IMG/VR virus record: IMGVR_UViG_3300005613_000316 | Span: 1-29,190 of that record | DNA length: 29,190 nt | Direction: 5' to 3' (one strand) | Source: a virus | Shown: positions 6,444 through 27,970 of the stretch, one piece after another | Position numbering within the stretch: the first letter of the stretch is position 1 | Layout: every line of letters begins with the position of its first letter | Translations under genes and position numbers: made by a program | Notes under the pieces: model-generated | The model's database searches: none | What the model was told of the DNA's origin: nothing | What the model saw: the letters and a program-made list of their open reading frames with translations, nothing else

Positions 6444-7223
6444 TCAACGCTGGAAAGCTTTCATAGCTTGTACTAATGCGTTACTAACATTGCTGGAAAA
6501 ATTATTTTGCTGCTTACCCAACCTTTGTCGAGCTAAGGCAGAGGGATCATACGTACTTGTTTGATCTGCTTTGTCCTCTATGTAGGTAGGTTGATTTAAC
6601 TCTGCTCTGCCGCGAGCGGCTACATCGCTCAGACCTGATCGTTGATTTAAAAGACCTCCTAGAAGACCTAAAGCATCCATTACGAATGCAAGTTCATTTT
6701 TAGCTTCAGTTGATTTTGGATCTACTTCAGTTTTATTAGTAGGGTTTGCAGCGTAATTAACATCACCGCCAGAAGAAGGTGCACCAGCAGCTTGCTGTAC
6801 ACGAGAGAAAGAAACGACGGGTTGACCGTAGTAACTTTTTCCTGCAAGCGTTGGAAGTGAGGCCCACTCGGGAGCTAACTTCGCCACATTCTCTGGAGTA
6901 ATCGCTGCTGTGTCGATATCCACGCCGCGCCGCTTGGCAAGATACCTAGCAGCGAGATCTTGAGATAAAGGTCCAAAATCTTTGAGATTTAAAGCTCTCG
7001 CTGCCTCTCCCCAAGTAGCGGGCATGAACTGATACGCGCCTGCAGCAGCACTCGCATATTCAGGAGTACGGATGACCTTGTCAGGGTGCTTGCTTAAATC
7101 CCCAAACGTTCCTCCGCCAAACATGATGTTGTAGCCGATTTGGCCGTCGCGAAGAGTACCCTCCGCATCAGCTATAGCGCGCAACCAACGTCTAGCGTTT
7201 TCGTTAAGGACTGACGAGGTCAT
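6444..7223 (-). CDS. Lambda-R-like lysozyme/lytic transglycosylase with C-terminal extension
   Basis: 259 residues. Residues about 10-145 follow the pattern of phage lambda endolysin (GH104-type lytic transglycosylase): DAEGT with the likely catalytic Glu at 21, GYNIMFGGGTF, DLSKHPDKVI, AAGAYQFMPATWGEAARAL, LKDFGPLSQDLAA and PEWASLP...YYGQPV. Known chemistry: cleavage of the MurNAc-GlcNAc bond of peptidoglycan with formation of a 1,6-anhydro ring. The last about 110 residues are low-complexity and extended, unlike lambda R, so it may be bound to the virion for local wall digestion at entry, or be the lysis enzyme. No signal peptide. The start ATG overlaps the stop of the NblA-like gene (TAATG), implying translational coupling. 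Confidence 0.88.
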   Translation of the reverse strand: MTSSVLNENARRWLRAIADAEGTLRDGQIGYNIMFGGGTFGDLSKHPDKVIRTPEYASAAAGAYQFMPATWGEAARALNLKDFGPLSQDLAARYLAKRRGVDIDTAAITPENVAKLAPEWASLPTLAGKSYYGQPVVSFSRVQQAAGAPSSGGDVNYAANPTNKTEVDPKSTEAKNELAFVMDALGLLGGLLNQRSGLSDVAARGRAELNQPTYIEDKADQTSTYDPSALARQRLGKQQNNFSSNVSNALVQAMKAFQR

Positions 7224-7453
7224 TACTCTTCGTCTGATTCATCGAATATATCTATATTAGGATCAACAACCACACCGAGTTCGTCGATTACGAATTTGAA
7301 AGCACGTTCGCGGCAGACAAGTCGAACGATACGATCCCATAGATATCTTTCACGCTCTTTACCTTTTAACTCGTGTGCGCCGTTTTTGATTCGAGTGAGA
7401 GTGAACTCGTCTTCGAGAGTCAGACTGAGACTAACGAACTCAGAGCCGTTCAT
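7223..7453 (-). CDS. nblA: NblA-like phycobilisome degradation adaptor (candidate)
   Basis: 76 residues. The core from residue 10 to 58 can be laid on Synechococcus NblA, as I remember it, without gaps over 49 positions: SLTLEDEFTLTRIK matches the NblA opening [FL]-S-L-x-x-E-Q-Q-F-x-L, and RLVCRERAFKFVID matches the closing helix with R-x-x-x-x-E-x-x-F/Y-K. By that memory about 10 positions are identical and many others conservative. NblA is a short helical-hairpin dimer that brings phycobilisome proteins to the Clp protease; several cyanophages carry it. Here an acidic tail (DPNIDIFDESDEE) is added. It is coupled to the lysozyme gene and preceded by its own promoter-like sequence. Alternative: an unrelated small helical lysozyme accessory. 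Confidence 0.62.
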   Translation of the reverse strand: MNGSEFVSLSLTLEDEFTLTRIKNGAHELKGKERERYLWDRIVRLVCRERAFKFVIDELGVVVDPNIDIFDESDEE

Positions 7454-7516: not shown

Positions 7517-7768
7517 TCACCATGCCTTGCAAGACCAGTATCCAGCGGTTAACTTAGATTTCTTTTCATCGCAATTGTGCCGAGCGCGGAAGTTTTTGCG
7601 ACGCTCCGGATTGTCCCTTTTAATCTCCATATTTGCATCACCAAAGCGCACTAAGCGCACAGTGTCACCCTCTTTGGCGGCTACAGCAAACTTTTTGCCG
7701 CCTTGCTTATCGCGCTTAGGTTTGTTGTAACCTGAGAACACTTCTCCAGCAATGCGGATCTTTGCCAC
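7517..7768 (-). CDS. Small basic Cys/His-containing protein conserved in marine phages
   Basis: 83 residues with a GTG start (GTG GCA AAG). An IRIAGEVFSGYNKPKRDKQG leader is followed by EGDTVRLVRFGDANMEIKRD, then NPERRKNFRARHNCDEKKSK and YWSCKAW at the end. I remember this FGD-x-N-M-x-I-K-x-D-x-P-E-R-R-K-x-F-R-A-R-H-x-C ... YWSC-x-x-W signature from many marine phages and cyanophages, where it has no proven role. The two Cys and the His could bind a metal; strong basic charge fits a nucleic-acid or assembly partner. It sits divergently from the HTH/Dps pair, with a 140-bp gap between. Confidence 0.85.
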   Translation of the reverse strand: MAKIRIAGEVFSGYNKPKRDKQGGKKFAVAAKEGDTVRLVRFGDANMEIKRDNPERRKNFRARHNCDEKKSKLTAGYWSCKAW

Positions 7769-8178: not shown

Positions 8179-8724
8179 ATGACTTCCTCTAACATCGAAC
8201 AGATCTTCCAGGCTGCTGGTGCAGCGCCAACAGAAGAGTTGATTACCGAGGAAGTCGTTATTGTTAAAGAGGCTAATGTCGACAATCTGATTTATCGGAT
8301 GGTTGAATTAGCCTCATATCTTTATCATTTAAATATTCAAGCGCATCTCATTCATTTAAATTACGAAAATTCTAATTTTCTGGCTGTCCACGAGTTTTTA
8401 AAAGAACAATACGAACAACACGTAGAAGACTTTGACACTATCGCAGAGTTAGTCCGCTCTATGGATTATCTGCTTCCCATGTGTCAAAAAGGACTTCTAA
8501 GCGCTCACAAGAATTTCAAAACTACAAAAACATACGAACCTGAAGCAAGTCTTATTCAGTACACAAAAAATTTAGAGGAAGGTGGCTTTCTAGCAAAAGA
8601 CGTATTCAAGTTAGCCCAAGAAGTTGAAGCTCCTGACGTAGAGAACGAGGTTGCCACGGTGGTTGGCCACTTGTTTAAAGGAGCTTGGATGCTAAAGGCA
8701 ACAATCAGGAAAGGCTCTAAATAA
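8179..8724 (+). CDS. Dps-like ferritin with one altered ferroxidase ligand
   Basis: 181 residues. After a 35-residue extension, the chain follows Dps: SYLYHLNIQAHLIHLNYENS (46-65), FLAVHEFLKEQYEQHVEDFD (67-86), TIAELVRSM, and a last helix HLFKGAWMLKATI. Spacing of the inter-subunit ferroxidase ligands is exact: H59, H71, D86 and E90 correspond to Dps H51, H63, D78 and E82 (E. coli numbering), but the fourth ligand, D67 in E. coli, is K75. Known role: a dodecameric shell that oxidises and stores iron with peroxide and can protect DNA. The lysine suggests weaker or different iron oxidation. It is co-oriented with the HTH gene and overlaps the convergent fibre gene by 8 bp. Confidence 0.82.
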   Translation: MTSSNIEQIFQAAGAAPTEELITEEVVIVKEANVDNLIYRMVELASYLYHLNIQAHLIHLNYENSNFLAVHEFLKEQYEQHVEDFDTIAELVRSMDYLLPMCQKGLLSAHKNFKTTKTYEPEASLIQYTKNLEEGGFLAKDVFKLAQEVEAPDVENEVATVVGHLFKGAWMLKATIRKGSK

Positions 8725-9340
8725 GAGCCCAACCGCCGTTCACTGCAACATAAAGACCGCTAGGACTGTCATTTTTATAAGCGAGCGTTCCTGATTCAGC
8801 GACTGCGGGGAAGCTTCCTGTAAAGACAGTCGCAGAAGGTACTCCAGCAGCACTCACAACACCGGAAGCCAAGTCAGCTCCATCAGCGTGTAGTGAGCCT
8901 GAAGATAATATGGCGCCAAGAGCACCTGAAGCTAAGATTGCGCCGAAAGCACCAGAAGCAACAATAGCGCTATTAGCGACAATAGCTCCAGAGGCAATTG
9001 TTACCGTAGCAGTTGCGGCAGCATCAGCAAACGCCGCACCTATTTTTTGCCAACTAGAACCGTTCCAAACACTTAAGTAATAAGAAGAAGTAGATGAATC
9101 TACCCATGTCTCGCCTACTGAGTTACCCGTCTGACCGACAGCGCCAACATTAGGAGCCGTGGTTGCGTAGTGAGTACCAGTAACTTTCCTAATATTTCCA
9201 GCAGAATCTTTAAAGTAGAGGCCGTTGTCTGCGGCAGCAAAATTAATCGCTAACTCACCGACTTGAACAGTCGTAGATAACGGCCTGTCTGAGGAGTTAC
9301 CAGAACGTTTGGATAGAAAAGTAACCGGTGTAGAAGTCAT
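8717..9340 (-). CDS. Tail-fibre/structural protein with Ala-Ser-Gly repeat
   Basis: 207 residues. The N-terminus (TFLSKRSGNSSDRPLSTTVQ, VGELAINF, GLYFKDSAGNIRKV) is the common attachment module of cyanophage fibre-type proteins. It is followed by GETWVDSSTSSYYLSVWNGS, one W...VW repeat, then about 40 residues of VASGAFGAILASGALGAILS-type repeats that could form a beta-helix or trimeric stalk, and a short C-terminal cap (GLYVAVNGGWALI). Start: GGAGGT ten bases upstream, located in the last codons of the preceding gene. Likely host-contact or decoration role. Confidence 0.82.
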   Translation of the reverse strand: MTSTPVTFLSKRSGNSSDRPLSTTVQVGELAINFAAADNGLYFKDSAGNIRKVTGTHYATTAPNVGAVGQTGNSVGETWVDSSTSSYYLSVWNGSSWQKIGAAFADAAATATVTIASGAIVANSAIVASGAFGAILASGALGAILSSGSLHADGADLASGVVSAAGVPSATVFTGSFPAVAESGTLAYKNDSPSGLYVAVNGGWALI

Positions 9341-9475
9341 TTAATAAGTACCTCCATTAATTGAAGGGCGGAAAAGAGGAGGAAGCCCTGAACCATTTAA
9401 GTAGTCGCCACCATCATAAATAATTAAAGGACTAATACCACTAACCACGGTTCCATTTAAATAAGTTCCTCCATC
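9338..9475 (-). repeat. Three degenerate DGG-Y-LNG coding repeats ending in a gene junction
   Basis: Units at 9454-9475, 9394-9415 and 9338-9358 (read on -) share the pattern GG-GG--ACTTA--TTAAATG; spacing is 60 then 56 bp. The last unit is 21 rather than 22 bases: one T is missing, so the reading frame meets TAA directly followed by the ATG of the downstream gene. Confidence 0.85.
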
Positions 9476-10912
9476 CGCTATAGGTGTATTTTCTGGAGGG
9501 ACTGGTTGCAGAGGGTTAAATTGATCGATGTCAAACATCGAGAATCCGCTAGGCACTAACGGACTGACTTCACCTGACGCCAGTGTGTCAAAATTTAAAA
9601 CTTTGACCAGTGTCGGATTCATATCCGAATAAAGCATGTTATCAGGAACACTGTCCTTAGTGGGCGAATACTGTTCCCACCAATTAAGGCTTTGAACTTT
9701 AGTTAGAAACTTATTTTGTTTTTCTAAATTTCTATCAAAATGTTCTCTATAACGCTCATCCAGAGGTTCATCAGTTGGTTGAGCTAGATAAGCATCTAGG
9801 TAAGAATAATTCGTAAACCTATTTTGCATATCCCACCAAGTTGCGTATATGTGTTTACAAAATCTTGGCTGAAAATATAAAAGATTAGGATCAGAGTAAG
9901 AAGAAGCAGCGTCATCTCTGTAAGAAGGAAGACCTAAAAGTCGCTTTGTATAAATAAAACCAAAATCACGAACAAAACCTGGGAAGTCTCTTAACTGAAC
10001 AGGACGATCGCCGTCAAAAGTATTAGTACCTGCGTCATAAATACCAGGTTTTAAATCTTGAGGTTGTGTATAAGGGTAACTACGTTGGTCAGAATATTTA
10101 TAAAGATTAAAATCTTCTCTAGCTAAATAATCAGGGCAGTTGCAACCAAACCGCATAGCTGTAGTCAGGTACTCACCCACGGTGGGATTTGAAACAGCAG
10201 GTGCGGTGAAACTTTGATCTTCAATAGAAGTCCAACTGGTGTCGGCGGTAACCGAGAGGAAAAGTGTGTCTTGGAAAGGTGCGGGAGTAGGAACTGCTGG
10301 GCCTCCTGCTTTGGTTCCCACAGCGACTACCGTGTAGTTGTTGTACGTAGTTTTTTCGCTACCGTCGGCGGCAAAGCGATCAGATAAGACTTCTCCCGTA
10401 AAAAATGAGATGGGAGCACCAAAATTACTAGACAGCTCTACCCCGATAATGTTATTAGTAGTGTCGTAATCAAATACACTCTTAATCGAGTAACCGAAGT
10501 CAAGAAAGTTAAAACTATCCCTAGGTCGTATTACGACCATTCGCATACCCATGTCTTGATCAGACGAGGGGTACATATAACAAAGACCAGGAAGTTCTAC
10601 TCCTCCAGAACCCGCTTGGCCGTTAATTGCGTATCTAAAAGTGTAGTTAAGACCAAGCAGAGCTTGATTAGTGTACTGATAAAGTTCGTATCCTCTTCTC
10701 CACCGCGTCCACATCGACGCATAGTTGTAATCAAAAAGAACACTAAAGTCTTTTAAATTTTGGTCGGGTCTAAATTTATTCTTCCAGGGCATCGGTCGGT
10801 TTAATGCCGACTGTTTGCTCGCCCCTGTTATTTTATTAAACGAAAAGTCAGACTTCTTGGGTGAGTGGTTATCCCACCCAAAATGATCTAAACCTTTGCG
10901 TCGTTTGCTCAC
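9341..10912 (-). CDS. Large virion protein with SWIM-like Cys/His motif and DGGxYLNG repeats
   Basis: 523 residues. An N-terminal basic segment (MSKRRKGLDHFGWDNHSPKK) leads to a Tyr/Trp/Asp-rich body. CNC at 257-259 and CKH at 352-354 give the C-x-C...C-x-H order of SWIM zinc fingers, although the 92-residue gap is long. The segment between includes YLAREDFNLYKYS. The C-terminus has repeats DGGTYLNG, DGGDYLNG and a final NGGTY that ends the gene. No enzyme motif seen. Its place beside the fibre gene suggests a tail or head-tail structural protein, and I have the impression of long cyanophage structural proteins with this pattern. The last repeat carries the Shine-Dalgarno sequence of the next gene. 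Confidence 0.8.
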   Translation of the reverse strand: MSKRRKGLDHFGWDNHSPKKSDFSFNKITGASKQSALNRPMPWKNKFRPDQNLKDFSVLFDYNYASMWTRWRRGYELYQYTNQALLGLNYTFRYAINGQAGSGGVELPGLCYMYPSSDQDMGMRMVVIRPRDSFNFLDFGYSIKSVFDYDTTNNIIGVELSSNFGAPISFFTGEVLSDRFAADGSEKTTYNNYTVVAVGTKAGGPAVPTPAPFQDTLFLSVTADTSWTSIEDQSFTAPAVSNPTVGEYLTTAMRFGCNCPDYLAREDFNLYKYSDQRSYPYTQPQDLKPGIYDAGTNTFDGDRPVQLRDFPGFVRDFGFIYTKRLLGLPSYRDDAASSYSDPNLLYFQPRFCKHIYATWWDMQNRFTNYSYLDAYLAQPTDEPLDERYREHFDRNLEKQNKFLTKVQSLNWWEQYSPTKDSVPDNMLYSDMNPTLVKVLNFDTLASGEVSPLVPSGFSMFDIDQFNPLQPVPPENTPIADGGTYLNGTVVSGISPLIIYDGGDYLNGSGLPPLFRPSINGGTY

Positions 10913-17210: not shown

Positions 17211-18326
17211 TCAAGCGTCGAAAGAGTAACCAACGGTCACGAAGTCTGCGTTAAGCAGTTCGAAACCAGCATACAGGCTCCAGATCATCATGATGAAACG
17301 TGAGAAGTCATCATTGTTGTTCAGGAGAACCTGAGCATTGTTGCCGCCGATGCCGACGCCAACAGACTGAGGACCGAAGAAGATACCGATTGCAGCGTTG
17401 TAGTCAGCGGTGCTGCTAGCAATCGTTGCGTTCTGAGTCTGGGAAGGCATGTTGGTGGATTCGAAGAATCGCACACCCTCGAAGACAAATCCAGTCGGCA
17501 TGATGGGCTCGCCAGCCACGAAGGTGGCTTGGCCGAAGCCTTGACCCATGTAGATGCTCGCGTTCGGCTGCATAGCCGACATGAGCGGGTTGATCTGACC
17601 ATTACCGGGGTAACGGGCCACCTCGCGGAAGTCGCTGTTCTGACGCAGGTGCATCAGGAAGGTGGGATCACAAACGCAACGGTAGAAACCGTCCTGGTAG
17701 GTAGGAGTGTTGCGCTTACGCAGGGACTTGACCACGCGGAGGAGGTCGTCCTTAACGTCGAACTTAGCTTGCTCGGCGTTGGTATAGGTGAGTGCGCCAG
17801 TGGCGAGATCACCAGGGAAGTAATAACCACCTTGGGAGTCAGAAGACTGACCCTTGGAGACAGCTTTCAGGAGTTCGTTGATGAACACCCGATCGCGCCA
17901 ACGGCGGTAATCGTCCAGCAGAGTCAGGCTGCCGATAGATTGATGGAAAGTATTTAAGTTTCCTGTATCTAACAGCAAGCGCTGCGCCGTGATTAAGGTC
18001 TCACGTGCAATCTTGAAAGTGCTGGGCTGAGTGGGGTCGGACGGGTCAGCAGGACCGGTGTACTCCTTAAGAGTCACCAGAACCTTGTCCTTCACAATAT
18101 TGCGGCTGTTTGCAGTACCGATGGTCTGCTCAGCGGTGCGCTCACGAGACTCCTTAGAGCCAGGGTTGCCGAAGAAACGGTAGCGATCTAACTGGACCGT
18201 CTGGCCGGGCTGTTTTGAGAAGTCGTGAACAACCACGGGTTCCGCAGCCATCTCGACGATGTATGCGGGGTGAGGACGGTAAAGTTCCGCACCGAGAATC
18301 TTCGGAAAATCATTATCGATAAACAT
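17211..18326 (-). CDS. Major capsid protein
   Basis: 371 residues. Features fit an HK97-fold capsid protein of the N4 gp56/P22-like kind: MFIDNDFPKILGAELYRPHP, RETLITAQRLLLDTGNLNTF with a long helix, DDYRRWRDRVFINELLKAVS, YRCVCDPTFLMHLRQNSDFR, PLMSAMQPNASIYMGQGFGQ, and an end rich in Asn/Asp/Phe (NNNDDFSRFIMMIWSLYAGF). Codon use is G/C-rich at third positions, consistent with very high expression. It is followed by GGAGGT and the second abundant virion gene, then a terminator, so the two form a capsid expression unit. No protease or extended delta domain was seen; scaffolding is supplied by the gene at 19838-20746. Identification rests on pattern and order. Confidence 0.85.
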   Translation of the reverse strand: MFIDNDFPKILGAELYRPHPAYIVEMAAEPVVVHDFSKQPGQTVQLDRYRFFGNPGSKESRERTAEQTIGTANSRNIVKDKVLVTLKEYTGPADPSDPTQPSTFKIARETLITAQRLLLDTGNLNTFHQSIGSLTLLDDYRRWRDRVFINELLKAVSKGQSSDSQGGYYFPGDLATGALTYTNAEQAKFDVKDDLLRVVKSLRKRNTPTYQDGFYRCVCDPTFLMHLRQNSDFREVARYPGNGQINPLMSAMQPNASIYMGQGFGQATFVAGEPIMPTGFVFEGVRFFESTNMPSQTQNATIASSTADYNAAIGIFFGPQSVGVGIGGNNAQVLLNNNDDFSRFIMMIWSLYAGFELLNADFVTVGYSFDA

Positions 18327-19837: not shown

Positions 19838-20746
19838 TCAGGAAGGCTCCATGAAAAGAAGCTTAGAACGCAGGGCTTCAGGTCCCATTTGGCTCAGATA
19901 ACGCCAAGCATTTTCAGGAGAACGGTTCATAACCTCTCCAAAAGCCTCCCACTGGTTCTGTGGAGTCGCGGCTTGACGACCCGCAGTGTTAGCGGGAGGA
20001 GCAGGCATGTCGTAGTTGGGCTGATACTGCTGAGGAGCTTGAGTCTGAACATCGCCGTCGATATCCACGGGGACGACTTCAGTAAAGAAGCGATCAGTGT
20101 AATCAGCTAAGTAATCAGGATTGGTAAGGATTTTTTCCATACCACCTGCCCGCGCTGCAACAGCGTCAGTTTTTTGAGCCTGGTTAATCAGCATGTCCTC
20201 CAGCGCACAAGCGTAGGAGTTCAGGATTCCAGGAGCTTCAATACCGAAGTGCTTAACGACCTCGGCGCTGGCGTCGCTTAGACCCCGGCTGCTCTGGGCC
20301 GTAGAAGCCTGAGAGGAAGTCTGGGTCGGTGAGGCGCTGATAGGCGAGGTCTGCTGAACCGGCTGCTGGTAAGCCCAGGGCTGGACCGGTGAAGTCTGCT
20401 CGCTCTGTGTTGTAACCGGCTGTTGAACCGGGGTTTGATACTGTGCTGCCTGGTTGGGGGAAGGCAATTGGCCCAGCACCCTCTCCAGGGAACCCATCGC
20501 TGCCTCCCAAGGGTTGTTGGGGGAGGATTGATACGTTGACGGGCTGGACGGGCTGTTGATAGAAGGGACCGTAGCCGGTGCCACCTGCGATGGCGCTTGG
20601 GCTGTAGGCACCGAAGCTACCGCCGGGGTAGACGTTTGGGCCACCCATTGCGGGTAGGCGGTTGTTGAGCCCTGGTCGCTGGATACCGCCGGGGCTGCCG
20701 CCGGGGAGACCGGGCTCGGGGTCGAAGCTTGGATCTGCTGGCTCAT
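19838..20746 (-). CDS. Scaffold-like capsid assembly protein, overlapping portal
   Basis: 302 residues. The first about 164 are extremely Pro/Gln/Ser/Thr-rich (QASTPSPVSPAAAPAVSSDQ); residues 165-302 are more regular and helical (HFGIEAPGILNSYACALEDM, EAFGEVMNRSPENAWRYLSQ). The disordered N-terminal half followed by a helical domain, location between portal and capsid genes and large size fit an internal scaffold protein that guides procapsid assembly. The N-terminal half lies in the same DNA as the portal C-terminus, in another frame (494 bp). Start at 20746 has no strong Shine-Dalgarno sequence; an internal Met 84 start is possible. Ends before a strong terminator. Confidence 0.72.
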   Translation of the reverse strand: MSQQIQASTPSPVSPAAAPAVSSDQGSTTAYPQWVAQTSTPAVASVPTAQAPSQVAPATVPSINSPSSPSTYQSSPNNPWEAAMGSLERVLGQLPSPNQAAQYQTPVQQPVTTQSEQTSPVQPWAYQQPVQQTSPISASPTQTSSQASTAQSSRGLSDASAEVVKHFGIEAPGILNSYACALEDMLINQAQKTDAVAARAGGMEKILTNPDYLADYTDRFFTEVVPVDIDGDVQTQAPQQYQPNYDMPAPPANTAGRQAATPQNQWEAFGEVMNRSPENAWRYLSQMGPEALRSKLLFMEPS

Positions 20747-22472
20747 AGCTACCCGAGTAAGTTAGTTCTTCCGCAAGGTGATCAAACGTCCTATAAAGGA
20801 GCGGAGTGATATTCAGTCTAGGATCAGCCGCTAAGGGTTGATCAGGCGCAAGAGGATGCGGAGACTGCAACATCTGGTTTAATAATACCAGGAATTGCTG
20901 CATTGCCGACTGTACTTGTCCGACCATTCTGAAAGGAAAACCTTTCAGCATTTCGGCACGTTCAGACTCATTTTTGTCAGGAAATAAGTATTTCAAAGCT
21001 TCAACGCTTTCCACACCTAATTCCTGCATATTCCGCACTACCATTGACTTTTGAAGTACGTCGTAGGCAGTGTCCTCGTACACATCGCCTTGATAGCGAT
21101 AAGAGACTGAGCGGTCGCCATCTTCCGGAAGACCGATGACGCCGCGTGGAACTTTATTTTCTGATAATGCTTTCTTAATCTCTTCGTCAAGTTTCATTTC
21201 AAATCGCCGAGAAGCTTTTTGATATTTCTCGACAGATTCTTCTGTCATTTCTTCAGGTGGTTTAGGTTCTTTTAAGCCAGAAGCGGCAATAAAAGACTCA
21301 CGAAATATCACCTCTTGGTGATAAATCATCATTTCTAAAAGTCGACAAAAACCGTAAGTTAAGAAACTTTTGTTTTTGCGAGTAGCCGTGGCTTGAGCAC
21401 GGCCCATTAAGCCTTTAATTTCAGTGGCTGTAGCACCAGCCGAGATTGAAATTTCATCCACCCCGCCTAAAGCAGTGCGGATTTCTTCTCTTAAAAGAAG
21501 CGCATAGCGGTTCATGTCACCGCTAATCGGATCAGGTGTCATATAACCGACACGATCCGAAGGCTCCACGTTGGCGATGATGCGTGGGACGCGAAGACCG
21601 CCTCCCATAGCAGTACCAAACGGCTCGCTTACGCGAGTCGAAGGTGTGTCCCGACCACCGAAGCCACTTTGTGAGCTAATGGTGGGCCGGAAAGCATTTC
21701 CAGCATCAGCAGCCTCGACCAGATCAGATCGAGGACGGCTGGAAATAAGCGTAGGATTACCAAAAAACTCAATATTTTTAGAAATATTTTTGATCATGTT
21801 GTCATGAAGCACAATCTGCTCCATGAACGGATCAAAATCTCCTTCTCCTTCAGTGCCGCTAGCGTTGGGCTTATTTAAAACTTCAACTGCAGGGACAAAA
21901 CCTAAAGGGTTAGGTCTAGTTTTACCCGGTGTTAAAACTGCTCCAGGCTCTAACTCAAAACTAAGCTCTGTATCAGACTCAACTTCACTTATTTCGTCAG
22001 CAGTAATACCTAAACGTACATAACGCTTGTTTTGACCGTAAACATCGCTAGGTAAACCTAATGATGAATTCTTAACTTTATAGTCATAAAGAATAACTAC
22101 TTCTTCTACTTGACCGTTTATATCGTGATAAACACGGTATTGTTTTTTGTTGAAAAAATAAATTTGATATTTAAGTTTTTGATTAGGTCGGAAGTAAAAA
22201 AGTCCGCAACCGTCGATTAAAAAACTTCTAATAATCGCAGGAAAACGAATATCGAGTCGATTTAACTCGATAACGTCCCGCAAAAAGGAAGTTCGGCTTT
22301 TGTAAGTGTCTTGATCGCAGTAGAAAGAAAGACCCTTTTTGATCATTAAAAGAGTCATCTGCTGCAGATGGCTTAACACCACCATGGTTGCAGCTTGATT
22401 TGATCGATCTTGAGTGCGGGCAGCCTCTAAGATCTCCTCAAATTGGTTACGAATCTCTGTAGAGGCTGTCAT
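20253..22472 (-). CDS. Portal protein
   Basis: 739 residues. An N-terminal helical part (QFEEILEAARTQDRSNQAAT) leads to the portal-type core: RFPAIIRSFLIDGCGLFYFR, YDYKVKNSSLGLPSDVYGQN, EISISAGATATEIKGLMGRA, ATRKNKSFLTYGFCRLLEMM and QEVIFRESFIAA. The last about 165 residues are Gly/Pro-rich with a basic end (KRRQRRGR) and overlap the scaffold-like gene. Known role: a dodecameric ring at one capsid vertex through which DNA is packaged and ejected; it also anchors the tail. The gene follows small gene 22482-22625 in the same direction. The family is inferred from pattern, length and neighbours. Confidence 0.85.
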   Translation of the reverse strand: MTASTEIRNQFEEILEAARTQDRSNQAATMVVLSHLQQMTLLMIKKGLSFYCDQDTYKSRTSFLRDVIELNRLDIRFPAIIRSFLIDGCGLFYFRPNQKLKYQIYFFNKKQYRVYHDINGQVEEVVILYDYKVKNSSLGLPSDVYGQNKRYVRLGITADEISEVESDTELSFELEPGAVLTPGKTRPNPLGFVPAVEVLNKPNASGTEGEGDFDPFMEQIVLHDNMIKNISKNIEFFGNPTLISSRPRSDLVEAADAGNAFRPTISSQSGFGGRDTPSTRVSEPFGTAMGGGLRVPRIIANVEPSDRVGYMTPDPISGDMNRYALLLREEIRTALGGVDEISISAGATATEIKGLMGRAQATATRKNKSFLTYGFCRLLEMMIYHQEVIFRESFIAASGLKEPKPPEEMTEESVEKYQKASRRFEMKLDEEIKKALSENKVPRGVIGLPEDGDRSVSYRYQGDVYEDTAYDVLQKSMVVRNMQELGVESVEALKYLFPDKNESERAEMLKGFPFRMVGQVQSAMQQFLVLLNQMLQSPHPLAPDQPLAADPRLNITPLLYRTFDHLAEELTYSGSYEPADPSFDPEPGLPGGSPGGIQRPGLNNRLPAMGGPNVYPGGSFGAYSPSAIAGGTGYGPFYQQPVQPVNVSILPQQPLGGSDGFPGEGAGPIAFPQPGSTVSNPGSTAGYNTERADFTGPALGLPAAGSADLAYQRLTDPDFLSGFYGPEQPGSKRRQRRGR

Positions 22473-24360: not shown

Positions 24361-25233
24361 TCAGTATGCGAACATTGTTTCCGTGTCAATAATACTCTCT
24401 TTTTGTAAAAGAGTAGAGGAATATTTTGAATCTAAGTGCTCAACTAGCGCATAGTCTGGGATAGTAATTTTATTATCTATTCGCACGGTTGGAACGACAC
24501 GTCGATGCTCTTGTTCCAGAAGTAAATTTTCAAAAGCTAAACCCATAGAAGAACGATCGGCAATAGGCCAATTTCGCTTTCCAGTTTTCAAATAACTTTT
24601 ATTCGGATCACAACTATCGCTAGTTATATATTTATCTGCTTGATCTTGATCTAAAACCATCAAACCAGCGTAAGGATTACCCAGTGACACAAAGCCAAGA
24701 ATCGAAGAATCTAAAGGAGTTGCTATAAAACTTCCGTTATGTGAAATATTCCCCCAACAGTTCTCAGTGGGACCTAAAAGATTCCACTTTCTGTAATTAT
24801 CAAAAGGTATCTTTTTACCACCACACCGCTCAAAACGACAAAAACCTGGTTCTAGATTTTTACGTTTTAAAACATCTTTGTATTTAAACCAGTAATTAAA
24901 ATGAATATCTTTAAAAACCATGTCGTTTTCTGAGTACATATAAAAACTGTGCTCACGATTTTTTACCTTTTTTATAAAATTTGGTTTGTGAGCCCAGCAT
25001 AAATAATACCCTGTAAACTCAGGAGAAGCAACAATGTATTTTATGTTTTTTAGTTTAGTATGTGAGTCAACTATGTAGGAAAGTTCATCGACGTCTTCAG
25101 CATGATCATTATCTACAAAAATTTCTACTTCAGTATTTAAAGGAAGAGATTCGTAACCCTCCAGCACTTTTAAAGTTGTTTTTAACCTGTTTAACGGGTT
25201 GTGGGCTGTAATAGCTATGTAAATAGATGACAT
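24361..25233 (-). CDS. Putative glycosyltransferase, GT-A-like fold
   Basis: 290 residues. YIAITAHNPLNRLKTTLKVL opens like GT2-type sugar transferases; TEVEIFVDNDHAEDVD provides a first acidic site (D41/D43) and FYMYSENDMVFKD (about 97-109) a likely metal/nucleotide-sugar site in place of DxD. The C-terminal region has aromatic and Asn/Gly residues that could hold the acceptor. Exact family and donor cannot be set. Overlaps the terminase stop by 1-3 bp, so it is part of the same transcript. Confidence 0.78.
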   Translation of the reverse strand: MSSIYIAITAHNPLNRLKTTLKVLEGYESLPLNTEVEIFVDNDHAEDVDELSYIVDSHTKLKNIKYIVASPEFTGYYLCWAHKPNFIKKVKNREHSFYMYSENDMVFKDIHFNYWFKYKDVLKRKNLEPGFCRFERCGGKKIPFDNYRKWNLLGPTENCWGNISHNGSFIATPLDSSILGFVSLGNPYAGLMVLDQDQADKYITSDSCDPNKSYLKTGKRNWPIADRSSMGLAFENLLLEQEHRRVVPTVRIDNKITIPDYALVEHLDSKYSSTLLQKESIIDTETMFAY

Positions 25234-26753
25234 TAGTATTCAACAGAAAAATTACCGCGTCTCTGTAAAAATGTCATAAGCCAAGTGTAAGCATCCAAAA
25301 GGTCGTCATGCGAAGTCGCTCCTACATTAATTAACTGATCAACAAGAGCATCAAATTTTCGGTATTTATTAAAAACAACTTTTTTATTTTCAAGCAGACC
25401 AAGTGTGCCCCTAAAGCGAGCTACTTTATCGCCTCTAAAACCTTTAACTTCATGGATATGAATGTTACCTAACCCACGCTCTTGCAAAAGGACTCGCCTA
25501 AGATCTGCCGCTAGAGATGCTTGATAAGCGACAGCTTCGACCACTAACGTAACGGTCGAATACGTAGGGAAATATTCATCACCCTGAGTCTGTAGTATTC
25601 CCCACTCTACTAACATATCGCACAGCATATCAATTTTTTCAAGATTACCTATAGAACGCACTTGATGTGAATCAATAATATAGTAGTTGTCCTTTAATCG
25701 TCCTCCTAAAACAAACGCTGTGTAGTCTGAAGTCTCATTTTTACTAGCTGAGAGATCGATACCCACTGCGAGAGAATCGAACTCAGTAACTACTTCTCCT
25801 TTAATAATTAGATCAGGAGATAAAACTAAGTCCGAGGTCATCACTGGTTGTTGCTGATACTGATAAGCAAAAGCAACCGGATCCAGCTCTTTTTGTCCTA
25901 GTAAGTACTCGACAGACCACTGCTCAGGCCAGTAACTAACAGGTTCGCCATTTTTATCGTATGTAAGAGCTTCTTGCGCGACCTGTTTCCAGCCTTTTTG
26001 CGGTACAAACATAGTTTTATGGATATCAAGCGGATGGAAACGAGTACCTAGACAGATCGAACGCCCACCCTCAAAGACAATCGGCGCAATAACTGACGAC
26101 CAGTTACTGTTCATTTCGTCTCGAATGGCTGGGTTCTTAATGTCCGAGCTTGATTTAATAGGGTCATCGACGATAACTAAGTGAGCACGTTTTGAAGTAA
26201 TCGAGCCTCTCAACCCAGCAGCCCTGAGCGTAAATTCCTCATCGCCCACGCGGGGAATCCCTGCGTAATCGAAGTCAATCGACCAACCGATATCGCTCTG
26301 CATACCGGCCTTTAACTTCACCCGAGGAAATATTTTTTTAAAAGATGAAGAATCAATAATTTGTTTAATAATCCGACTTTTGGGGATAGCTGTAGCGATG
26401 TTGTAAGAACAGTAAATAATTTGAAGAGGACGCTGAGCAGTTGTGTGGCGACCAATAACCCAAGCCGTAAACAGGTTGAGCACCGTGCTCTTAGCGCTTC
26501 CACGGGGGCTCAGAATATCAAGGTTCGGCCCTGCAATATCTAATAAGTATTTGTTGCTTTCCCCTGTAATCAACTCCCGATGCCATTCGAGCATGTGTCT
26601 AGCAGGCGGCTTATCAAGAAGCGTACAGAACGTCATAAAGTCATTCTGTGCTCTTGAAAAAACATTATCAATACCAGTATCTTCCTTGTCAATAGCTTTC
26701 TGAGCGCGAAGCTTTAAAGCTCGTCGATAAGCAAAAGTCTCTCTGCTGGGCAT
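25233..26753 (-). CDS. terL: Terminase large subunit
   Basis: 506 residues from the ATG at 26753 (MPSRETFAYRR); the frame extends to 26804 but that would overlap the divergent gene start. Walker A SPRGSAKST (82-90), Walker B LVIVDDP (192-198), the coupling segment RAAGLRGSITSKRAH just before it, and the RNase H-like nuclease AVGIDLSASKNETSDYTAF and TLVVEAVAYQ, ending with HDDLLDAYTW. Known role: the ATPase motor that drives DNA into the procapsid through the portal and cuts it. No small subunit was recognised nearby. Very good identification. Confidence 0.96.
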   Translation of the reverse strand: MPSRETFAYRRALKLRAQKAIDKEDTGIDNVFSRAQNDFMTFCTLLDKPPARHMLEWHRELITGESNKYLLDIAGPNLDILSPRGSAKSTVLNLFTAWVIGRHTTAQRPLQIIYCSYNIATAIPKSRIIKQIIDSSSFKKIFPRVKLKAGMQSDIGWSIDFDYAGIPRVGDEEFTLRAAGLRGSITSKRAHLVIVDDPIKSSSDIKNPAIRDEMNSNWSSVIAPIVFEGGRSICLGTRFHPLDIHKTMFVPQKGWKQVAQEALTYDKNGEPVSYWPEQWSVEYLLGQKELDPVAFAYQYQQQPVMTSDLVLSPDLIIKGEVVTEFDSLAVGIDLSASKNETSDYTAFVLGGRLKDNYYIIDSHQVRSIGNLEKIDMLCDMLVEWGILQTQGDEYFPTYSTVTLVVEAVAYQASLAADLRRVLLQERGLGNIHIHEVKGFRGDKVARFRGTLGLLENKKVVFNKYRKFDALVDQLINVGATSHDDLLDAYTWLMTFLQRRGNFSVEY

Positions 26754-26775
26754 AATCGAAAACTGTCTGTATACT
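26747..26775 (+). promoter_or_regulatory. Candidate divergent promoter
   Basis: TATACT (26770-26775) is a strong -10 box 22 bp before the ATG at 26798; TGGGCA (26747-26752) lies 17 bp upstream and matches TTGACA at four of six positions. It overlaps the start of terL on the other strand, so transcription in one direction may affect the other. Confidence 0.4.
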
Positions 26776-26797
26776 GATAGCGAAAGTCTACATCCGT

Positions 26798-27970
26798 ATG
26801 GCAAAAATTCTCTGGTATGGTGACGGTGTTTCTAACACGGGATTTGCTCGTGTGACACACAGTGTATTAGAACAACTTAGTAAAAATCCTGAGAATGAAA
26901 TTGTTCTGTATGCAATCAATTATAACGGAGATCCTCATCCCTATAATTTTAAAATTTATCCCGCCGCTGCTCACAATCCGCAAGATCGTTTTGGTATTAG
27001 TCGGATTCAGCAAATCGTAGAAACAGAGAAACCTGATTTTTTTATCTGTTTAAATGACATATGGATCGTAAACCAAGTTTGGGAAAGAATTCACTTATTA
27101 AAGTCAGCGATTAATTTTAAATTTATTGCTTACTTCCCAACAGACTCAGAGTGGTATCCGCTCTCGATGCTTCGTTTTTTAAAAGATTGGGATTTTGCAA
27201 TTACTTTTACAATCGAGCAAGCGCAGCGATTGATGGCTCACGGGGTTAAACCCAAATTAATGGGCGTTATACCACACGGAATTGACAATCAGAAGTTTTA
27301 TCAAATTGATCAAGCCCAAGCTCGTAAAACTTTAGGGCTGCCGGAAGATAAATTTATTGTTTTTAACGGCAACAGGAATCAACCGCGAAAGCTTATTGAT
27401 CAGACGATCAAGGCGTTTGCTGAGTTTGCACAAGGCAAGCAGGATGTTTTGCTTTACCTGCACATGGGTGAGAAAGATCTTGGTTGGGCAGTTAAAGAGA
27501 TTTTTGAAACTGAGATGAGAAGGCGAGGCGAAGATCCAACAGCAAAACTTTGTATGTCACCAGATATTAACTATTTATGTGCACCGTCTGACGAACATCT
27601 AAACCTTATATATAACGCTGTTGATGTAGGAATTAATACGGCTAACGGCGAAGGCTGGGGATTAGTTCCATTCGAACATGCGATGTGTAAAAAGCCTCAA
27701 CTGGTTCCTAACCACACTTCTTGCAAAGATATCTGGAAAGAAAAAGGTCTTTTAATCAATGTCGCAGCTTGGTTTACCGACAAAGACTTAGGAGTGGAAA
27801 GAGGAATTATCGACTACAAACATGCGGCGCAACTGCTTCAGGAGTTATATGAAGATGAAACTTATCGCCAGCATGTAGCCGAAAAATGTTTTGAAGTCAC
27901 GCAAAACCCTTCTTACCGTTGGGACAAAATTGCTGAAGGTTTCAGCAACGCAATGGAGGCTCTTTCATGA
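26798..27970 (+). CDS. GT4-family-like glycosyltransferase
   Basis: 390 residues, GT-B two-domain architecture. N-terminal domain: MAKILWYGDGVSNTGFARVT with a Gly-rich loop, FFICLNDIWIVNQVW and AYFPTDSEWYP. C-terminal domain: IPHGIDNQKF (158-167), FNGNRNQPRKLID (189-201) and NGEGWGLVPFEH (283-294), which matches the GT4 E-x-x-G-x-x-x-x-E donor-binding signature. It probably transfers an activated sugar to a glycan or protein. Stop overlaps the start of the next gene (ATGA at 27967-27970). Family is well supported; sugar and acceptor are not known. Confidence 0.9.
   Translation: MAKILWYGDGVSNTGFARVTHSVLEQLSKNPENEIVLYAINYNGDPHPYNFKIYPAAAHNPQDRFGISRIQQIVETEKPDFFICLNDIWIVNQVWERIHLLKSAINFKFIAYFPTDSEWYPLSMLRFLKDWDFAITFTIEQAQRLMAHGVKPKLMGVIPHGIDNQKFYQIDQAQARKTLGLPEDKFIVFNGNRNQPRKLIDQTIKAFAEFAQGKQDVLLYLHMGEKDLGWAVKEIFETEMRRRGEDPTAKLCMSPDINYLCAPSDEHLNLIYNAVDVGINTANGEGWGLVPFEHAMCKKPQLVPNHTSCKDIWKEKGLLINVAAWFTDKDLGVERGIIDYKHAAQLLQELYEDETYRQHVAEKCFEVTQNPSYRWDKIAEGFSNAMEALS

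Follow-up and report, generated by a model that had tools for sequence, protein, structure and literature searches.

NblA is a homodimeric helix-loop-helix adaptor that delivers phycobilisomes to the Clp protease, its N-terminal motif binding ClpC and its C-terminal part binding phycobiliproteins (PMC7966870, PMC4103541, PMC7760959). Phage-encoded NblA, including nblA genes that lie among virion genes, is already known. NblA of phages from marine metagenomes and freshwater is reported, according to a summary in PMC9602691, to cause loss of phycobilin on expression in cyanobacteria, and viral NblA is treated in a 2025 paper (Nature 648:434, as cited in PMC13386980). For the lineage of phage S-EIV1, a 2017 survey put the share in the genome abundance of ocean cyanophages at about 3%; hli and ptoX were listed for the lineage, and nblA was not (PMC5332604). 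The gene described here comes from that lineage, adjoins a lysin gene and encodes a protein that resembles NblA.

Phage lineage and the NblA-like gene

The window (i.e., the whole stretch of DNA that was analyzed) is a 29-kb virus record. Three of its genes were used as lineage markers:

17211..18326 (-): major head protein; matches S-EIV1 only (69.5% over 99%)
20253..22472 (-): portal-like virion protein, phrog_20475; matches S-EIV1 only (42.5%)
25233..26804 (-): terminase large subunit, phrog_38; 51% to S-EIV1, as against less than 30% for every other record listed

S-EIV1 was the only phage record to match the major head protein, the portal-like protein or the Dps-like protein of the window. 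The window most probably derives from a larger cyanophage genome of the S-EIV1 lineage, because the major head protein, portal, terminase and ferritin-like protein are all best matched in S-EIV1 and because related contigs that carry the family A gene (see below) are of similar size, reaching 80-86 kb (S-EIV1: 79 kb). Kinship with S-EIV1, and this only, suggests Synechococcus as the host. A glycosyltransferase group 1 gene (26798-27970, +) adjoins the terminase gene.

The initial annotation had called a 76-residue frame in front of the lysozyme gene. The gene and its parts are as follows:

7223..7453 (-): NblA-like gene; 76-codon ORF, 76 aa, ATG start; conserved family with profile similarity to NblA
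7403..7423 (-): LTLEDEF, residues 11-17; gapless alignment with the N-terminal LSLEQQF of NblA; fully or almost fully conserved across 48 sequences
7376..7417 (-): helix 1 as predicted by AlphaFold2, residues 13-26; NblA control helix 9-22, offset 4
7277..7363 (-): helix 2 as predicted by AlphaFold2, residues 31-59; NblA control helix 27-55, offset 4
7226..7276 (-): C-terminal extension, residues 60-76, with the acidic end DESDEE; conserved in the family, low model confidence

Family A is used here for the 7223-7453 protein and its IMG/VR relatives, and family B for the S-EIV1 protein AHV82245 and its relatives. A direct search with the 7223-7453 protein yielded relatives at 32 IMG/VR loci; with an alignment as the query, 110 candidate loci were obtained, of which 80 were kept, and 55 distinct proteins were read from these. 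The gene occurs in one copy per phage record. In an alignment of 48 sequences LTLED, F17, L19, R21, A26, L29, W39, E49, R50, G60 and F70 are invariant, and pairwise dN/dS, considered only where synonymous sites were unsaturated, was 0.05-0.14. The conserved family, the invariant residues, the low dN/dS and a single conserved gene order (see below) show that 7223-7453 is a real gene and that its protein, conserved as such in the IMG/VR relatives, is under purifying selection. The acidic tail past the normal NblA end, which had also been noted at the outset, is equally genuine, as residues 60-76 are conserved across family A, with D64 and N66 nearly invariant alongside G60 and F70. No cellular copies of family A were found in 292 cyanobacterial genomes (in a search without a positive control). 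In 18 contigs with the family A gene, neither psbA nor hli was detected, and a search for alternative oxidase (PTOX) gave one match, below the cut-off and with an internal stop.

Similarity to NblA in sequence and predicted fold

Single-sequence searches with the 7223-7453 protein returned nothing (Pfam, PHROGs, PDB and phage records), and no match to PF04485 even at E 10; these negative results were set aside because the sensitivity of such searches is too low here. The search with the PF04485 model, proposed with the initial annotation, was thus negative for this protein alone, to which one half of the refuting condition named there therefore applies, and positive for the family: when each family A member was compared singly with the whole of Pfam, NblA was the top family for 31 of 48, with a best E-value of 4e-4. 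Relatives scored individually against PF04485 reached 20.2-20.6 bits, the match being gapless over model positions 2-47 of 50, and all members stay below the curated Pfam cut-off of 25 bits. Imm51, CLAG and CTK3 were rejected as the Pfam identity of family A, as they were hit by fewer members and with weaker E-values than NblA. NCBIfam and PHROGs gave nothing relevant to NblA for family A.

Profile comparisons were more sensitive. With hhalign, family A matched a set of aligned, diverse cellular NblA sequences (among them one freshwater-phage NblA, from Ma-LMM01) with a probability of 86.7 and a score of 32.4 over 53 gapless columns, whereas none of 60 column-shuffled alignments exceeded 14.8 and the reversed one scored 9.8; against Nostocales NblA only, the probability was 77.7. 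Among 177,635 PDB sequences the family A profile placed Anabaena NblA (1ojh) at rank 1, with an E-value of 0.12 and in the same register. In an unfiltered search of 11,355 phage ORFs with the NblA profile, 83 of 84 family A ORFs were matched, at 7.3-22.3 bits (10.4 bits and E 0.38 for the 7223-7453 protein itself), and family B scored 17-32 bits, whereas all other ORFs scored at most 7.9 and reversed ORFs at most 9.8. Identity of family A to NblA in the profile alignments is roughly 16-19%.

That the protein aligns without gaps to the core of NblA, as put forward in the initial annotation, was confirmed by these profiles, and the match exceeds the shuffled and reversed controls; at the family level the similarity covers the whole core and is specific with respect to shuffled, reversed, ORF and PDB controls. 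The N-terminal NblA motif is kept (LTLED and F17 are invariant and lie on LSLEQQF), and the CRERA(F/Y)K motif in predicted helix 2 aligns with (V)REATYQ of NblA. In the C-terminal region, to which phycobiliprotein binding by NblA is ascribed, the RExxF/Y pattern is retained, but the LLKHxWG end of NblA is replaced. At 76 aa with a 17-residue extension, the protein departs from the usual NblA length of about 60 aa, with an end just after helix 2. Family A is very probably homologous to NblA. We do not assign it to NblA proper, because its scores stay under the Pfam cut-off and its length is not the usual one.

An AlphaFold2 model of the 7223-7453 protein, built with 18 relatives, has helices at residues 13-26 and 31-59, a mean pLDDT of 71 and a disordered tail; genuine NblA (the 1ojh sequence, locus L114) gave helices at 9-22 and 27-55 with the same procedure. 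Predicted helix and loop lengths are equal in the two proteins and are shifted by four residues, the offset at which the sequences also align (L11/E14/F17 on L7/E10/F13; R48-E49 on R44-E45). The short-then-long helix-loop-helix of NblA is thereby found, at matching positions, in the predicted monomer, as the initial reading would have it. A Foldseek search of the model against PDB and BFVD returned no NblA and no significant match; because a model of NblA itself likewise failed to find NblA, this result was uninformative and was discarded. The proposal of a phage-encoded NblA-like protein is supported at the level of homology, through the family A profile, and at the level of the predicted fold. 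Two further weak matches, one between the Hsp104 N-domain and the second helix plus tail of family A (alignment A2, residues ~22-65; non-significant, E 0.59) and one between alignment A3 and ClpA (E 1.8), are probably due to chance.

S-EIV1 itself encodes an NblA-like protein, the hypothetical protein AHV82245 (L033:36363-36683 (+), corresponding to KJ410740 73902-74222), with an extension of its own and a long acidic tail. Its similarity to NblA is stronger (hhalign probability 96.5; best PDB match 1ojh, E 0.0067), and its relatives were found at 31 IMG/VR loci. Families A and B never occurred in one record (18 records with A only and 6 with B only among those tested). The direct comparison of the two profiles was not significant, so the families may be orthologous or may have been acquired independently; their relation rests on the common similarity to NblA, the position and the mutual exclusivity.

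Pairing with lysin genes and proposed function

The genes adjoining the NblA-like gene are:

6444..7223 (-): lysozyme/endolysin, phrog_90 endolysin, E 2.9e-29; position conserved, enzyme family variable
7517..7768 (-): small conserved protein, phrog_7595, DUF5754-like, upstream of the NblA-like gene; conserved block
8179..8724 (+): ferritin-like/Dps protein, PF00210 (E 2e-8), phrog_3636, 46% to the DNA-binding ferritin-like protein of S-EIV1; conserved block
8717..9340 (-): minor tail protein, phrog_356, E 1.4e-16; synteny, conserved block
9341..10912 (-): late protein without assignment, with a weak S-EIV1 homologue; synteny, conserved block

The NblA-like gene and the lysozyme gene share one base, where the stop codon of the former runs into the ATG of the latter (TAATG), and this overlap at 7223 makes translational coupling of the two genes plausible. 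At the loci that hold the stretch, the order is kept from the 9341-10912 gene through the tail protein, the ferritin-like protein (opposite strand) and the phrog_7595 protein to the NblA-like gene. The start of the gene that follows, chosen by script, lies at most 70 bases away in 36 of 37 loci (in the remaining one a distant start was picked mechanically), and at most loci the spacing to the hydrolase is an overlap or a gap of a few tens of bases. All 10 following genes that were compared with Pfam are peptidoglycan hydrolases (SLT, SLT_3 lysozyme-like, phage tail lysozyme and M23 peptidase), and others at family A loci match the phrog_90 endolysin, like 6444-7223. A peptidoglycan hydrolase thus follows at every profile-checked locus, and the enzyme families are unrelated; because the family varies at one constant position, the enzyme is exchangeable, whereas its pairing with the NblA-like gene is constant. 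The lysin neighbour pointed out in the initial annotation is in this sense real and conserved throughout the lineage. The corresponding S-EIV1 block consists, in this order, of a phrog_7595-like gene (L033:35190-35495; also present in related family B loci), a lysozyme of another family and AHV82245.

Several observations concern the neighbours themselves. The lysin slot (6444-7223 and the matching positions in L001-L113) is a replacement hot spot between conserved genes. The ferritin-like/Dps gene lies inside the late block and keeps its place next to the NblA-like gene across the lineage; S-EIV1 has it at another position. It may serve phage iron or oxidative-stress handling. The phrog_7595 protein, whose gene always precedes either the NblA-like gene or the lysozyme gene, is 64% identical to a Roseobacter phage protein and occurs in phages of very different hosts.

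The best explanation, which we regard as reasonably probable, is that the 7223-7453 protein is a diverged NblA-like adaptor of the phage, made late together with the lysin, by which phycobilisomes are brought to the Clp protease of the host. Given homology to NblA, it is likely that family A acts on phycobilisomes, and because of that homology the same action as that of NblA is the most likely one for the 7223-7453 protein. The protein would form an NblA-type homodimer, with LTLEDEF docking on the host ClpC chaperone and the second helix binding phycobiliproteins; phycobilisomes would be dismantled and fed to the Clp protease, by which amino acids would be freed and light harvesting cut, in line with the recycling of host pigment protein suggested in the initial annotation. 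Synthesis together with the lysin suggests that the protein would act late in infection. The C-terminal extension would probably adjust target choice or docking, and target choice may differ from that of NblA, because the N-terminal motif is near-invariant and the client-facing end is divergent and extended. The explanation is supported by S-EIV1 itself, with an NblA-like protein beside the lysozyme in the corresponding block; counting against it are the lack of an NblA match for the 7223-7453 protein alone, scores of members below 25 bits, the non-significant A-B comparison, the model pLDDT of 71 and the absence of psbA and hli from the 18 contigs. More tentatively, and with considerable doubt, the lineage, a widespread one, may pair phycobilisome dismantling with lysis by means of an NblA-like adaptor with its own extension in a late lysin gene pair; with psbA and hli undetected, light harvesting would be stripped and not sustained, and the timing would be set by the late operon.

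The lysin link is tight, so a role in lysis or in the virion could be meant instead, the NblA fold having been repurposed. The protein would then leave phycobilisomes untouched and be either a partner of the lysin, as its regulator, chaperone or timing factor, or a small part of the virion. Such a role would agree with the adjoining hydrolase at all loci tested, mostly with overlaps or short gaps, with the unrelated lysozyme next to the NblA-like gene of S-EIV1, and with the position of the block among virion genes. A specific lysin partner is disfavoured, however, because the hydrolase switches family (phrog_90 type, SLT, SLT_3, M23 and the other endolysin of S-EIV1) while the small protein is conserved; its most conserved part is the NblA N-terminal motif, as expected for an NblA-type interaction, and marine T4-like phages have nblA among virion genes where no lysin adjoins. 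The last point also corrects the initial annotation, in which the location among virion genes was held to be unusual, as annotated nblA is so placed in both S-SCSM1 and S-SCSM2R. Repurposing is considered unlikely.

An NblA-like adaptor with another client, whose ClpC-binding end would steer other host proteins to the Clp protease, is less probable than repurposing. This alternative would fit a nearly invariant N-terminal motif, for which ClpC binding has been reported (PMC4103541), and a divergent C-terminal part, the reported site of phycobiliprotein binding, with a new conserved tail; no evidence for any other client was obtained, however, and the phycobilin loss ascribed to phage NblA from marine metagenomes and freshwater phages (summarized in PMC9602691) argues for the usual client. 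Convergence, i.e., an unrelated small two-helix phage protein with a chance likeness to NblA, is slightly less probable still, since, prone as short helical proteins are to weak matches and with a single sequence that gives no significant match and Pfam cut-offs that are not reached, the shuffled and reversed profiles, the 11,355 ORFs, all of Pfam and all of PDB nevertheless point to NblA in one gapless register, and the independent structural register is the same.

Under the preferred reading as an NblA-like adaptor for phycobilisomes, the findings matter because phage NblA alters the light harvest of infected picocyanobacteria. If the two unannotated families of the S-EIV1 lineage are active, nblA-bearing phages are being undercounted, and the lysin neighbour, being conserved, offers a handle on when the antenna is dismantled during infection. 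S-EIV1 has been isolated and its host is in culture, so that the family B protein of this phage is directly testable.

Comparison with known NblA proteins

Cellular NblA (PF04485; Anabaena 1ojh, S. elongatus 3cs5) has the same predicted helix lengths and spacing as family A and shares the N-terminal LxLExxF and the RExxY/F motifs in one gapless register, but does not have the 17-residue, acidic-ended C-terminal extension; at ~16-19% identity, family A falls below the Pfam cut-off. The freshwater phage proteins (Ma-LMM01 gp005 and those of MaMV phages) are phage-borne with the same core as family A, but unlike family A are readily recognizable (tblastn E 3e-5 to 6e-5 with a cellular-type query), and the Ma-LMM01 gene adjoins nrdA, whereas the family A gene adjoins a lysin.

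Marine phage NblA (T4-like S-SCSM1/S-TIM5 and T7-like S-RIP2) resembles family A in comprising divergent Synechococcus phage proteins and is not recognized by the family A profile. In S-SCSM1 and S-SCSM2R nblA shares the location among virion genes but not the lysin neighbour. The NblA-like ORF of S-RIP2 (NC_020838; L279:29005-29286, -), in a stretch without an annotated gene, scored 26.9 bits with the NblA profile, as compared with at most 22.3 for family A; the NblA annotated in S-SCSM1, found with HHpred by the authors of that record, was not among the listed matches of the same profile.

Family B (AHV82245) is closest in context, with the same lineage, an NblA-like core, a C-terminal extension and a lysozyme neighbour; it differs in being located after the lysozyme gene (family A lies before the lysin), in its longer acidic tail and in its stronger similarity to NblA (96.5). 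The viral NblA papers of 2019 and 2025 may already include family A or have noticed family B; with that reservation, two things appear to be new: in the S-EIV1 lineage, an unannotated and strongly diverged family whose C-terminal extension is conserved and whose gene constantly adjoins a lysin gene, and, in S-EIV1 itself, a second unannotated NblA-like family.
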